64,000 nucleotides of DNA, taken from contig JAFVOS010000006.1 in the NCBI GenBank assembly GCA_017505705.1, positions 1 through 64,000 of the forward strand, read 5' to 3'. Each line of letters begins with the position of its first letter. The stretch's first letter is position 1. Made by a program: the position numbers and the translations under genes. This document shows, one piece after another, positions 1 to 30,272 of the stretch. The DNA comes from Alphaproteobacteria bacterium (GTDB lineage Bacteria > Pseudomonadota > Alphaproteobacteria > Rs-D84). Under the pieces are notes generated by a model, which searched no databases, was not told the DNA's origin, and saw only the letters and a list, made by a program, of their open reading frames with translations.

Positions 1-2273
1 GGTCTCGTTCGATGTTGTTCCCGACGTCGTTCCATTATAGTACTTTTTATACGTTCCGCCGGCGCACGAGCACGCATTCCACGCCGTCACAGATGCACAG
101 CCCGACGGTGTTGACCCATTGTTCTGCGTACACCCACGTGTTACGTTGGTATAGCATGAGTTAATCGAAGATGAACCAGCATCAGAATATGGGTATGCTG
201 TTGGACATGCTTGTTTCACGCCACCAGAACAGTAATATCCCGCTTCACATTGAGAACATGTGCCACTGCTGTTTTTATAGTATCCAGCGGTGGTGCAAGA
301 ATATGTCCAGCTGCCATATGACCAAGAACCACAGTTGCCAGAACCGGTACATGCCGATGATGATGTAGAACCAGCCGCACTGGTTGTACGATAACATGTG
401 CGTGATTTACTGCGTGTGCGTGTTCCACCAGTGACATTTTCTGTATCTGAACCTGTTTCTGTGAATGAAACACCAGAACATGCGGCGCACGATGAGCCTG
501 ATTTATAATAATTTGCGTTACATGCCCATGGACAGTTGCTTTCCACCGCATACATGGTTGATGGTGTTGAATAACTGGTATAATAAGAGTTTGTTGGTTT
601 ATTCGTACATGCGGTACAACTGGTATACCAATCGCCCCAATTCAATGGATCAGACGCATAATGCCCTGTTTTACATTGTGAATATTTACGGTATTTGTTG
701 CTGACAGGGCCTAATTCACAGGCATTCTGCTGTAAATATGATGTTGTTGTGTCATCACTAAAATTCCAGTTACACATACAATCTGAAGATTTAACAGCGT
801 GAGTGTAATCTGACCAGCTGCCGTTCGATAAACTGGTAATTGAAGATGGTGTTGGTGCACCAGATTTTACAGTTGTTGAGCATGATGCACGATGTGTACC
901 ACCGGTACAGAAATAACCCGAACCACACGCAGAACACGATGTTTGTCCTGTTGATGAATTATATGTTCCTGGTGAGCAGTATGTGCGTCCCTGAACCCCA
1001 CCGTTATATGTCCATGTGCCACCGGGACACGCATAGCCAGCTTCACATGTTGCACATGTTGTTCCATTTAAATACTTACCCGCAGAACAAGAATAGGTTG
1101 CCGCATAACAATCACTTGACGCGTCCGACCCCGCCGCAGAAGTATAACCTGTGCCACACGATGTACGTTTACCTGTTGACCCATAATAAACCGTTGCTGA
1201 TGGACAATAATAACCCGCAGTACATGTTGATTGGGTACTGCTATTTTCCGTTGCGATATATTTACCCGCAGTGGTTGTCAGATAACAGTCAGTCGCAGTG
1301 TCCGAACCTGCTACAGACGAACCGTACCCCGTTGGACATGCTGTGCGTCCTTGAACGCCGCCGTTATAGGTCCATGAACCACCGGGACAGAAATATCCGG
1401 CAGTACACGTTGTACACGACGTACCATTCAAATACTGTCCCGCAGAACAAGAATAGGTTGCCGCATAACAATCACTTGACGCATCCGACCCCGCCGCAGA
1501 AGTATAACCTGTGCTACACGATGTGCGTGTTCCTGTTGAACCATAATAAACCGTTGCTGATGGACAATAATAACCCGCAGTACATGTTGATTGGGTGCCG
1601 CTATTTGCAGTTGCGATATATTTACCCGCAGTGGTTGTCAGATAACAGTCAGTCGCAGCGTCCGAACCAGATGCCGATGAACCGTACCCCGTTGGACATG
1701 CTGTTGCACTGCCTGAACCTTCTGGACAGTATGAACCTGCTGGACAGGTTGTACGTTTACCTGTTGACCCATAGGAAATATTAGTTGCGGGACAATAATA
1801 ACCCGCAGTACATGTTGATTGTGTACTGCTATTTGCAGTTGCGATATATTTACCCGCAGTTGTTGTACCATTACAGTCCGCCGCTTCGTCCGATCCCGCT
1901 GCAGATGTTGTATAGAACGACCCCAGTGATGTACACGCTGTTACCCCAGTAGAACCAGCAGGACAATAGCCGTTTTTTGTACACGTAGTACAACTGGAAG
2001 AGCTTGTCCCACCAGTAGAAGAACGATATGTCCCCGCGGGACAATTTTGTGCATTGGCTGTGCCACCGGTGCAATATTTTCCCTTGGGGCATATTGTACA
2101 CGCATTACCAGCCTGGGCGGTGCCGTTATATGACCCATTGTATGTCATATAATATCCCTTTGCACATGATGTATATCGCTTGGTAGCGCAAGTATACCCC
2201 GCCGCATCCGCAACAGTGGTGCCCAGTAACAGAAATACAATAGAGAAAAGAAAGTGGTCGTTTAAATTCGACA
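1..2273 (-). CDS. Giant Cys-rich exported repeat protein, partial, currently without a start codon
   Basis: A single minus-strand frame runs unbroken from 2313 to base 1, so the C-terminus lies outside the window. It encodes a hydrophobic signal-peptide core (FLFSIVFLLLG, then VADA/AG cleavage) followed by more than 700 residues rich in Cys, Thr, Ser, Gly and Tyr, with recurring CTAGYYCP- and GSTGxRTSC-like motifs. A 360-bp (120-residue) unit is repeated: 1081-1350 matches 1441-1710 closely and a further partial copy lies near 1801. In the present DNA arrangement an in-frame TAA lies at 2314-2316 and there is no ATG or ribosome site before the signal peptide; both are supplied if segment 2274-2327 is inverted. 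Function is unknown; a surface adhesin or coat-like protein is inference. The short methionine-started frames overlapping it are shadows. Confidence 0.8.
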
Positions 2274-2360
2274 GCAATAAGGGGGAGCTTATGTCGCAGA
2301 AATCTGGGTTTTTTTATGTCAAACGATTGCCGAAAAAAATCCACCAATTGGATTAGGCAG
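2254..2360. repeat. Invertible start-codon switch (locus A): inverted repeats around a 54-bp segment
   Basis: The right repeat (2328-2360) belongs to the 33-base family also found at 11050, 26639 and 29693. The left partner (2254-2273) matches its reverse complement at 13 of 20 positions. The 54 bp between them carry GGGGGAG followed by ATG (2291-2293) on the plus strand, pointing away from the minus-strand gene and now making only a 21-codon peptide. If the segment is inverted, this ATG reads 12 codons and continues in frame into the repeat-protein gene, completing its signal peptide. As drawn the gene is OFF. Confidence 0.75.
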
Positions 2361-10117: not shown

Positions 10118-10852
10118 ATGAAAGGAAAACAGGGGATTATATATTGCGTGTTTGCGTTGATGATAACGCATGTTGCAAATGCAGAAACATGCATACCAAC
10201 AACGTTTAATGTTACATATAGTTGTAATGGTGGAACACTGGCGGGGACATTGCCGACGGCCAAGACGGTTGAATATGGAACATACCTGTCATCAACCGCA
10301 ATTACAGAATCCATGTGTACCCCCCCATCAGGCTATGTATATGGTGGCCAGGCCGTACTTGTAGACGGCGAAGAGGTCGCATATTATAGCAGTACCGGTT
10401 TCAGTGGTTTCACTTTTTATTATACGACGGACATAGAAATTGGGCCACATTGGGTGCCTGTTGCGACACCAGCGGCACTGACGGCAAATCTGGGTCAAGG
10501 TGGCCGTTCGTATGTGTACGATAAAACGGCCATGACATGGACGGCAAAATTTTGGTATGGTGCGGTATCTGGCGTTGCAAAATGTTCAACGATAAAGCCT
10601 GAAAACACTGAATATGGTTTTTATACCGGCCTGATTGCCAGTGACCAAGATGCCATTGAAAGTGATGCGAACAGTGGTCAATATTGTTATTGCAAAATGA
10701 CCGAACCATTGGTTTCCGGGTCGCCGTGGGTGTCCTACGGCGACGAGTCGACTCCATCTTCTTGCACGTCCTATTGCGCCTACGACTGTGGCTCCAACGT
10801 TCGGAACTACGTCGTTTTCCGTGCGTCCGTCTTTGCGGCTGCGGGCAATTGA
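10118..10852 (+). CDS. Exported Cys-rich protein with a B-repeat-like N-terminal unit
   Basis: A 244-residue protein. The start at 10118 is chosen because it gives a clean signal peptide (GIIYCVFALMITHVANA, cleavage before ETC) after AAGGGAAAAG; the in-frame upstream extension from 9986 is purine-rich leader. After cleavage comes one InlB-type unit (FNVTYSCNGGTL...KTVEYGTYL). Then a Cys-rich C-terminal region with YCYCKM and CTSYCAYDCG motifs ends in FRASVFAAAGN. Function is unknown. The final third has higher GC than its neighbours. Confidence 0.7.
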   Translation: MKGKQGIIYCVFALMITHVANAETCIPTTFNVTYSCNGGTLAGTLPTAKTVEYGTYLSSTAITESMCTPPSGYVYGGQAVLVDGEEVAYYSSTGFSGFTFYYTTDIEIGPHWVPVATPAALTANLGQGGRSYVYDKTAMTWTAKFWYGAVSGVAKCSTIKPENTEYGFYTGLIASDQDAIESDANSGQYCYCKMTEPLVSGSPWVSYGDESTPSSCTSYCAYDCGSNVRNYVVFRASVFAAAGN

Positions 10853-10855
10853 TAA

Positions 10856-11011
10856 GCGTGGGTCGGAAATGCCCATGTGGCCTTGGTGACAGTGCTTTGT
10901 TTCGTCAAATGTTACTCTGCATAGAGTTCCGGCTGCGTTAGCCTGGCTGGACAATATATAGTTACTGGTTAACAGTGCGATAAGTAAATAAAACCGATTT
11001 TGTTTGGCCAT
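10856..11011 (-). pseudogene. Remnant of a signal-peptide gene (N-terminus only)
   Basis: From the ATG at 11009-11011 the minus strand encodes a good signal peptide (FYLLIALLTSNYILSSQANA) and a few further residues (AGTLCRVTFDETKHC). Its Shine-Dalgarno (CCGGGAG) and promoter are intact. The frame then runs antisense into the oppositely oriented gene at 10118-10852, where it no longer looks like a protein of this class. The body of the gene therefore seems to have been lost, leaving its switch region and 5' end. Confidence 0.5.
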
Positions 11012-11082
11012 AGTGTGTAATTCTCCCGGATTTTATGGTTTGTAACATTTGTCGAAACAAAACCTCCCATTGGATTAGGCAG
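10978..11082. repeat. Degenerate invertible switch (locus B)
   Basis: The right repeat (11050-11082) matches the 33-base family (CGAAACAAAACCTCC core). The left partner (about 10978-11010) is weaker: roughly 12 of the first 18 positions match in inverse orientation. The 39 bp between them hold the ribosome-binding site and the first base of the ATG of the remnant gene. In the present orientation the start is intact (ON); inverted, the ribosome site is lost. Confidence 0.5.
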
Positions 11083-25304: not shown

Positions 25305-26525
25305 TTAATTTGTGTATGATGCATTTACCGTTGGGCAATCATATTCCCCGGTTGTGTCTGACCATGTGGCACCACTGTTTGTCGTTAGATAACATTGGGT
25401 AACGGCTGTAGAAGCTGTGGATGATGTTGTGCCGCTGACGGTGGTACCGCTGTTGGATGTATGTTTGGGGCATGTGGTGCATGTTGTGTTTGTGTGGGCG
25501 CTGCTGGCCATGTATGTGCCGGCTGCACATGGGATACAACCTGGGGACGAATTACTTTCTATCATTCGTGATCCTGCCTTGCAATTTTTTAAGCTACACT
25601 TACTGCTAACAGTATTGCCAGAATTCCATGTTGCGGTATTCCATGCGTTGGCATACGTGATATGTGATGAGCAATTTGCATTACAACTGGTTTGACCAGT
25701 GGCGGATGTCGTTTTACCATTTTGGCATGCGATACATGTGGTCTGTGCAGTGGTGTTGGTGTATGAACCAATGGCGCATTTGCCCGAACATGTGCTGGTG
25801 CTTAATCCGGATGTTGCGCCAAATGTTCCTGCTGGGCATGCGGTGCACCCAATACTTGATACAGCGCTGCATGGGTTGGTGGTTGCTGGAAATGTGTATT
25901 TACCACTGCTTGCAGCGGCGGCAGCGGCATAGTATCCAGCCTTGCAGGTAAGGTATTGCCCCGTTGATGTGGTGGTTTTAGTCCCGCTGGATGTACAGCT
26001 GTTGGGTAGGAACCATGCGACTTTGTTGGCACTGCTGGAACAAGTGCTGGGCAATGATTTTTCTGTATATCCACTGGTGCTATAGCAGCATGAAAATTGT
26101 GCGATGTTTTCGATGTTTGCGGTTATATAATATCCGGTTCTGGGGTTGCTGATGCCACCCCATCCTAATGCAGCGATTGCGGCTTCTGACAATTCTGGTT
26201 GTTGGCCATGATAGTCAGAGTCACATGCACGTACACCCAAGCATTGATATTGATCCTTGAAGCACAGAAGTACCTTGGATGTATCGCCATCCATTGTAAG
26301 GGTTTTAACGGTACAGTACGCAAAAACCCCATATGAAGTATCGTAATGTGGCAGATCGGTGGCGCTGCTGGTGTTGCAGTATGTTGTGCCGTTGCAGTAA
26401 CTGACTAGGACGCCAGATTGTGATACGTCGCAATCTGCGGCAATGTATGTGTTGTCGCCGAGTGATCCGGCATTTGCAAAAGATGGCATAAATGTCAATA
26501 CAGCAATTAATAATATTTTTTTCAT
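25305..26525 (-). CDS. Exported Cys-rich protein, first gene of a switch-controlled operon
   Basis: A 406-residue protein. The signal peptide (ILLIAVLTFMPSFANA) is followed by the domain shared with the downstream paralogue. Then come several CxxC units of TNF-receptor/EGF-like appearance (GCTACPAGTFG, TCIACQNGKT, GCIPCAAGTY, TCTTCPKHT) and the tail VTQCYL...DTTGEY. Start at 26525 follows AAGGAAAA on the minus strand. The next gene begins 26 bases after this stop. Transcription comes from the promoter in the invertible segment 26585-26638, now facing the gene. Function unknown; the structure suggests a disulfide-rich surface protein. Confidence 0.78.
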   Translation of the reverse strand: MKKILLIAVLTFMPSFANAGSLGDNTYIAADCDVSQSGVLVSYCNGTTYCNTSSATDLPHYDTSYGVFAYCTVKTLTMDGDTSKVLLCFKDQYQCLGVRACDSDYHGQQPELSEAAIAALGWGGISNPRTGYYITANIENIAQFSCCYSTSGYTEKSLPSTCSSSANKVAWFLPNSCTSSGTKTTTSTGQYLTCKAGYYAAAAAASSGKYTFPATTNPCSAVSSIGCTACPAGTFGATSGLSTSTCSGKCAIGSYTNTTAQTTCIACQNGKTTSATGQTSCNANCSSHITYANAWNTATWNSGNTVSSKCSLKNCKAGSRMIESNSSPGCIPCAAGTYMASSAHTNTTCTTCPKHTSNSGTTVSGTTSSTASTAVTQCYLTTNSGATWSDTTGEYDCPTVNASYTN

Positions 26526-26551
26526 TGTGTGTTTTCCTTGGCTTTCGGTGG

Positions 26552-26671
26552 TTGTCCAATATAAATGGAGGTTTTGATTCAACACCCCTACGATTTCATT
26601 TTAGCCCTGTTTTCCCGCACATGTCAAGCATCAAAAATTGTCGAATCAAAACCTCCCTTTTTTTTAGGCAA
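26552..26671. repeat. Invertible promoter switch (locus C), ON orientation
   Basis: Right repeat 26639-26671 and left repeat 26552-26584 are inverted copies, 27 of 33 positions matching and 17 of 18 in the inner part (GAATCAAAACCTCC core). The 54 bp between them contain a complete promoter on the minus strand directed at the two-gene operon. The inner arm length and segment length are the same as at locus A. Confidence 0.85.
26598..26627 (-). promoter_or_regulatory. Sigma70-like promoter inside the locus C segment
   Basis: TTGACA (26622-26627), 18 bp, TAAAAT (26598-26603) on the minus strand. Hexamers and spacing equal those at locus D. Inversion of the segment would turn it away from the Cys-rich operon and toward hisS. 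Confidence 0.75.
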
Positions 26672-29606: not shown

Positions 29607-29725
29607 CTGCCTAAAAAAAACGGTCAGTTTTTTTAGGCATCTTTTGGTGAAATTTTATCACAGAAAATCGGAGGCTGTCAACATCAAAATAGTGCCGAAT
29701 CAAAACCACCGTTTGGGTTAGGCTG
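29607..29725. repeat. Invertible promoter switch (locus D), OFF orientation
   Basis: Left repeat 29607-29639 and right repeat 29693-29725 are inverted copies matching at 23 of 33 positions, both with the AGGCA-type outer end. The 53 bp between them hold a promoter on the minus strand, facing away from the gene at 29754. The left repeat is also self-complementary (GCCTAAAAAAA...TTTTTTTAGGC) and could terminate the reversed transcript. Confidence 0.75.
29652..29681 (-). promoter_or_regulatory. Sigma70-like promoter inside the locus D segment
   Basis: TTGACA (29676-29681), 18 bp, TAAAAT (29652-29657), minus strand. It is the same promoter design, spacing and distance to the right repeat (11 bp) as at locus C. 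Inversion would direct it to the genes at 29754 and 30291. Confidence 0.75.
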
Positions 29726-29753: not shown

Positions 29754-30272
29754 GTGAAAACAATTTATAAAATACTTTTTTCTATGTGCAGCACCTTGGT
29801 GTGTGCAATTTATTCGGTGCGTTCATTTGCAGCAAGTTTTGTGCATCCGTCGTGTAGTTGGGTGGACTGCGATGATTATAATCCTATCTCGTGGATTGGA
29901 AATGGTGAATATGGAGTGTGTCCAGATGGTGTCACAGTAGAGAGTTGTATAAGGCTTGATGCTGCGGGACATGTGCTAAAAGTGGTAGTGTGTAATACTG
30001 ATTACTGTCTGGATGATGGCGGGCTAGTAAATGGTAAAGGCTATTATCCTGACACTGTAAGAACGGTAATTGCTAATGCTTATCCAAATAGTTGTGTTAT
30101 TACGTATAAGGATTGTGTGCCCTGTCCAGTGGGATTTAATAATATGATTGGGCAAGGCGGAAATTTTGGTATTACATATTGTTATATGCCGAAAGATAAG
30201 ATTTTTAATGATAATGATGGGAATGGTAAGTTTAAATTTACGGATAGTTGTTATTACAGTGTAGGTAGTTAA
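29754..30272 (+). CDS. Small exported Cys-rich protein
   Basis: A 172-residue protein starting at GTG (29754) after GGTGGGGGCC. The signal peptide (IYKILFSMCSTLVCAIYSVRSFA) and the general plan are shared with the next gene. The mature part has a CxxCP unit (DCVPCPVGF) and the tail ITYCYM...NGKFKF...SCYYS, the same type of C-terminus as in the 24400 and 25305 proteins. No promoter faces it in the present orientation of the switch upstream. It may use readthrough otherwise. Function unknown. Confidence 0.72.
   Translation: MKTIYKILFSMCSTLVCAIYSVRSFAASFVHPSCSWVDCDDYNPISWIGNGEYGVCPDGVTVESCIRLDAAGHVLKVVVCNTDYCLDDGGLVNGKGYYPDTVRTVIANAYPNSCVITYKDCVPCPVGFNNMIGQGGNFGITYCYMPKDKIFNDNDGNGKFKFTDSCYYSVGS

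Follow-up and report, generated by a model that had tools for sequence, protein, structure and literature searches.

How can a large secreted protein be made from a gene that has no start? This question is raised by the left end of the window, i.e. the 64,000-nucleotide stretch analysed here, which corresponds to positions 1-64000 of contig C4 of a 0.96-Mb draft genome (G000). On the minus strand, a Cys-rich frame is open from 2277 down to base 1, which is also the first base of the contig, and the gene for a secreted or surface protein that it represents (1-2277) is incomplete at that end. In the present orientation, neither the window sequence nor the list of its open reading frames offers this gene a start codon accompanied by a ribosome site; all that is available is a bare TTG (2277), and an in-frame TAA (2314-2316, minus strand) lies upstream of the frame. 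A ribosome site and a start codon are found nearby on the plus strand (GGGGGAG, 2281-2287, and ATG, 2291-2293), where they face away from the gene. Our results indicate that the region 2242-2359 is, in all likelihood, an invertible phase-variation switch acting mainly on translation initiation.

Anatomy of the start cassette and its promoter

The segment carrying the start codon lies between two inverted recombination sites. The promoter-side site (2328-2359) is a 13-6-13 dyad, TGCCGAAAAAAAT-CCACCA-ATTGGATTAGGCA, with its spacer at 2341-2346, and it is an exact match to the consensus. The gene-side site (2242-2273) has the spacer TGGTCG (2255-2260) and the inner half TTTAAATTCGACA (2261-2273), which alone is conserved, the outer half (2242-2254) being degenerate and encoding signal peptide. 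The two spacers share five of six bases, including the central GT, and mismatch at one base (TGGTCG versus TGGTGG). The definition of an inverton as a short segment between inverted recombination sites is therefore met by 2242-2273 and 2328-2359. That of an intragenic inverton, with both sites within the coding sequence, is not met, as the promoter-side site is upstream of the ON start codon.

The exchange point is inferred, from sequence alone, to be the shared central GT/AC (2257-2258 and 2343-2344). Exchange at this point would invert about 86 bp (2258-2343) rather than 54, and the assignment of this segment, which is now OFF, rests on relatives and paralogs with an inverted core and on inversion on paper. 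When 2258-2343 is so inverted, ATG TCG CAG AAA TCT GGG ... is obtained, that is, MSQKSGFFYVKRLPKKIHHFLFSIVFLLLGTTVADAAGYTCATKRYTSC, and the reading is MSQKSGFFYVKRLPKKIHHFLFSIVFLLLGTTVADA^AGYTC followed by an open frame. The resulting ON product extends over at least 770 codons to the contig edge and contains 63 Cys, and its frame remains unchanged wherever the spacer is cut. Its N-terminal codons (MSQKSGFFYVKRLPKKIH...), with a QKSG motif conserved in relatives, now occupy 2291-2356 on the plus strand, where they are read as a 21-codon stub whose TAG stop (2354-2356) falls within the promoter-side site. A GGGGGAG/ATG-type module is present in 73 of 98 cassettes of matching size.

Outside the segment, a fixed promoter motif is located at 2386-2414 on the minus strand, with a -35 TTGTGT (2414-2409), 17 nt and a -10 TATAAT (2391-2386), exactly 26 bp from the promoter-side site. 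A consensus promoter scanner called no promoter at the window locus, TTGTGT being a 3/6 match, and the motif is believed because equal spacing recurs across loci. Indeed, 38 of 51 related loci, ON and OFF alike, have a TATAAT-like hexamer that is separated by 25-26 bp from the promoter-side site, usually with TTGnnn 17 bp further up, and a strong TTG...TANAAT pair is present at 35 of 51 loci versus 1 of 51 in the gene-side control. As this promoter lies outside the segment, the switch would mainly control translation, and the definition of a promoter inverton, with the promoter within the segment, is not met at 2242-2359. It is met by two sister cassettes of the window, recognised by the common site pattern and both assigned to the minus strand. 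The first one (26553-26670; spacers TGGAGG/GGGAGG) is ON, its internal promoter (TTGACA-18-TAAAAT) facing a secreted Cys-rich gene (25305-26585, minus strand), and the second one (29608-29724) is OFF, its internal promoter being directed away from a secreted gene (29754-30272, plus strand).

The 32-bp site consensus, derived from relatives, is TGCC[TG]AAnnnAA[AGT]-N6-[AT]TTnnnTT[AC]GGCA. The full pattern occurs at five places in the window (10 matches on both strands, versus 0.16 matches expected) and is carried by 40 of 156 genomes of the genus, with at most 28 copies each, while a reversed-pattern control gave none. Taken together, these counts and the empty control argue that the window sites are not due to chance. 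The arms were missed by a generic repeat finder run around the locus, because they are imperfect. Among the collected loci, 112 site pairs were found, and their inner distance is 52-54 bp in 97 cases.

Three further observations concern the distribution of the sites. A solo site with one mismatch (11050-11081) immediately precedes a minus-strand gene for a small secreted protein (10586-11011); this site has no evident partner and could perhaps be a remnant or a fixed cassette. In six draft genomes (including G001, G012, G013, G014 and G015), nine sites lie less than 300 bp from contig starts versus 1.0 expected, an about ninefold enrichment that is consistent with mixed orientations and also with assembly breaks caused by repeats. 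The 32-bp dyad pattern also matches a few Bacteroidota and Clostridia records (L316, L322, L333, L336, L346 and others), which could be either invertase sites or chance hairpins.

A first-pass annotation, made without any comparison, had described the startless minus-strand gene, the TAA at 2314-2316 and the opposed GGGGGAG and ATG (2291), had placed a fixed TTGTGT-17-TATAAT promoter outside the segment, and had considered a chance agreement of ribosome site, frame and signal peptide unlikely. The first claim is upheld by the sequence and the second one by the conserved position of the motif in related loci, and the site counts and the empty control argue against chance. Its boundaries, i.e. 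repeats at 2254-2273 and 2328-2360 around an invertible segment of 2274-2327, do not hold and are replaced by the sites 2242-2273 and 2328-2359 and by a segment of about 86 bp.

Both orientations and a conserved frame among related loci

The relatives belong to 'Candidatus Enterousia', Alphaproteobacteria of uncertain placement with reduced genomes, found in animal guts (PMC12306168). When their upstream regions are aligned, promoter, leader and core are conserved, and one locus (L034, G147:C10) has the core alone reversed. This locus holds a Cys-rich gene of the same type as in the window, with its core ON, and the reading is MRQKSGILFGKNIANLIHHFFFSFTLLLVFVTTAADGAGYSC, continued over a complete protein of 788 aa, which contains Ephrin_rec_like domains and is 39% identical to the window product over the N-terminal 119 aa. 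Between L034 and its OFF ortholog in G118, identity amounts to 86% in the promoter flank and 83% in the gene flank, and the cores are 93% identical only after inversion. Two tandem paralogs of a single genome, G146, show the same relationship, the gene flanks of L024:2090 (OFF) and L024:3683 (ON) being 99% identical and their cores 93% identical, only when one of them is inverted. This genome contains five ON cassettes (L024:3683, L133, L135, L136 and L137) and four OFF cassettes (L024:2090, L025, L138 and L139). These results show that both orientations exist among related loci. The requirement that both orientations of an inverton occur is thus met among orthologs and paralogs, not within one strain. 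The window locus itself was seen OFF only, and the genomes compared are draft assemblies, mostly metagenome-assembled, without read-level or same-strain evidence of both orientations; ongoing flipping is therefore an inference.

A paralog of the Cys-rich gene is also present in the same genome as the window (L021, G000:C8:72451-72672; 97% identical to window 1981-2202). It has an ordinary fixed start, with a ribosome site, an ATG and MSRFLRIFAVFF..., which suggests that coding sequence is exchanged between switchable and fixed copies.

The joining of the start codon to the gene was assessed in 63 cassettes having a ribosome site, a start, a known gene side and a gene-side ORF of at least 80 aa. 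The longest gene-side ORF is in the frame of the start codon in 54 of them, the remaining two frames accounting for 5 and 4 (p ~1e-17 against 1/3), and these 54 loci comprise 40 OFF and 14 ON ones. No comparable frame preference is observed on the promoter side of the cassettes. Furthermore, a hydrophobic core such as that of a signal peptide is present within the first 55 residues of 52 of 53 ON products. About three of the 14 ON loci (L329, L347 and L372) look promoter-type, and several of the nine exceptions either belong to the promoter type or result from a wrong start chosen by the script. As loci and genomes are related, the p-values overstate independence; the in-frame joining is nevertheless shown beyond doubt. 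Within one genome, near-copies of the start cassette precede unrelated secreted proteins (e.g. MQKSGIKFLNILPITIVGL in G028), indicating that the cassette behaves as a portable module.

The proposal, already made in the first-pass annotation, that inversion supplies a ribosome site, an ATG and an in-frame signal peptide is thus supported both on paper and by the 54 in-frame loci out of 63. The inverted form, which it had suggested looking for in related genomes, was found, e.g. at L034 in G147. Its conclusion that the gene is phase variable and currently OFF is supported by these inverted relatives, the coexistence of both orientations within one population being unproven.

A candidate master invertase

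The spacers hold information on the type of recombinase. Their positions 3-4 agree between both sites of a locus in 93 of 99 pairs, versus 28% when arms are shuffled between loci, and this central pair varies among loci (GA, AC, GT, AA...) yet matches within a locus, whereas agreement at the outer positions 1-2 is not above chance. This co-variation, which is itself shown, is inferred to be the trace that a serine invertase exchanging a 2-bp core would leave behind.

The genome has one small serine recombinase, encoded at C5:65135-65752 of G000. It passes the NCBIfam model NF009949, 'master DNA invertase Mpi family', with 307.4 bits versus a cut-off of 272, has a Resolvase domain (PF00239) and shows sequence relatedness to DNA invertases and resolvases of solved structure. 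Of the 40 site-bearing genomes, 38 contain its close subgroup, defined by at least 72% identity, versus 10 of the 116 site-less ones (Fisher p ~1e-24). The exceptions are G012 and G021, which have sites without the close subgroup, and the 10 genomes with the subgroup and without strict-pattern sites. Three features that can be required of an Mpi-family regulon, namely a family member above cut-off, its co-occurrence with the sites and a matching two-base exchange core, are thus present.

A tyrosine recombinase, first suggested by the 6-bp spacer, was given up as a candidate in favour of the serine invertase: G028, with 19 sites, has XerC/XerD only. Non-Xer tyrosine recombinases (L130 and L131) were likewise rejected, as they are present in site-less genomes and absent from site-rich ones.

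It is established that the invertase is present and that it co-occurs with the sites, and it is probably this Mpi-family enzyme that performs the inversion; its action on these sites is inferred, without any inversion assay.

Proposed mechanism, rival explanations and known systems

According to our model, a fixed sigma-70-type promoter would transcribe leftward over the 86-bp invertible segment. In the ON state, this segment would provide a ribosome site and a start codon together with some 18 N-terminal codons; these would lead in frame, via the gene-side site, to the signal peptide of the Cys-rich protein. In the OFF state, which is that of the assembly, the message would have neither ribosome site nor start and would meet an in-frame stop, the start codon being antisense; the absence of protein from OFF cells is inferred. 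The Mpi-family invertase encoded at C5:65135-65752 would flip many cassettes together, whether they carry a start or a promoter. A bolder reading, which we consider probable, is that of a genome-wide translational phase variation in reduced-genome gut Alphaproteobacteria, with one Mpi-like master invertase, a portable start cassette before many unrelated secreted proteins, promoter-flipping cassettes with identical sites alongside and, in some species, an OFF-side terminator.

A first alternative, which appears unlikely, is a termination switch similar to that of cwpV, in which an OFF terminator between the fixed promoter and the gene would be the main control and the start codon would be secondary. 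In its favour, 14 of 53 loci have, in the OFF orientation, a hairpin with a T-run behind it (-5 kcal/mol or lower), versus 2 of 53 in the ON one, and the window shows a weak one (-4.7 OFF versus none, 0, ON). However, an OFF-specific terminator is lacking at most loci, including those of the G146 and G028 families, a terminator scan found none at the window locus, the OFF leader of the window folds no better than shuffles, and all start-type loci have a start codon that moves. In roughly one cassette out of four, the promoter-side site itself forms a hairpin with a T-run behind it, in the OFF orientation only. The OFF-specific terminator is thus probably an accessory lock in some species and not the main mechanism.

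A second alternative keeps the switch and assigns it to another recombinase, of the tyrosine type, such as XerC/D or a phage integrase. The dyad with its 6-bp spacer does resemble tyrosine recombinase sites, and the two site-bearing genomes without the Mpi-like subgroup could also be invoked. Against this, only the two bases at the centre of the spacer and inner bases co-vary, none of the six tyrosine recombinases of the genome tracks the sites, enzymes of the L130/L131 type do not either, and XerC and XerD are alone in the site-rich G028. This possibility therefore appears unlikely.

It is still less plausible that the locus is a remnant, the Cys-rich gene having lost its start, with a coincidental ATG on the plus strand or a weak start at TTG 2277. 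Such a TTG does exist, and a single orientation is seen in this genome, but the TTG is not preceded by a ribosome site, the anatomy is repeated at dozens of loci, and frames stay open over 100-770 codons beyond a site for which a dead gene would have no use. Moreover, relatives L022, L027, L028 and L030 also have an in-frame TAA just before the signal peptide, and ON-oriented relatives were looked for and found.

Finally, the locus could be a dispersed repeat with a conserved antisense small ORF or small RNA (MSQKSG...LD*) and no switch. The plus-strand ORF is indeed preceded by a strong ribosome site and is found again across the genus. This reading is practically ruled out, since the codons of this ORF form the beginning of the large protein at all loci with an inverted core, its OFF reading ends within the recombination site, the conserved promoter faces the opposite way, an Rfam search gave no match, and ON loci in frame with the downstream gene were looked for and found.

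Invertible control of translation initiation thus remains the preferred reading, and it has several implications. Genomes of about 1 Mb in host-associated bacteria can still afford a large surface-variation system, in which the start cassette is a standard module before many secreted proteins, under apparently one master invertase. Gene callers miss or truncate such surface proteins when the assembly has caught the OFF state, and reads that already exist would allow each cassette's state to be determined directly. No mention of inversion was found in the Enterousia genome paper (PMC12306168), nor any description of start-codon cassettes in the literature searched, which did not cover Chanin et al. 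(2024).

Known DNA-inversion switches mostly flip promoters, whereas here the translation start and N-terminal codons are flipped. One of the closest known systems is that of Mpi in Bacteroides fragilis, which inverts 13 regions (PMC4747536); it is a serine invertase of the same NCBIfam family and controls numerous short inverted segments that are dispersed over the genome and precede surface genes. Its segments, however, carry the promoter, while 2242-2359 carries the ribosome site, start and N-terminal codons and leaves the promoter fixed, and B. fragilis belongs to Bacteroidota, while the organism of the window is an alphaproteobacterium with promoter-type cassettes beside start-type ones, with identical sites. 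Clostridioides difficile cwpV is similar in its layout: the upstream promoter is fixed, and a part of the 5' leader of this gene for a large cell-wall protein is invertible (PMC2784873). Control of cwpV relies on a leader terminator and a tyrosine recombinase. The window cassette differs in moving the start codon itself, most likely by means of a serine invertase. The window cassette resembles intragenic invertons (Chanin et al., 2024, Nature) in having one site within coding sequence and in altering the 5' end of the reading frame. Those invertons, however, are reported to lie wholly within genes and to re-code or truncate the protein, whereas the other site of the window cassette is outside the gene, and its two states are start present and start absent. 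In the Mycoplasma Vsa and Vpma systems (Vpma: PMC2268961), site-specific inversion likewise joins expression signals to surface-protein genes, but long segments are rearranged and the choice is made among the genes of a locus, instead of one short ON/OFF cassette per gene. The enzyme family and the many-loci logic were thus already known from Mpi, and what is probably new is a mobile start codon with its N-terminus as the switched element, repeated across the genome.
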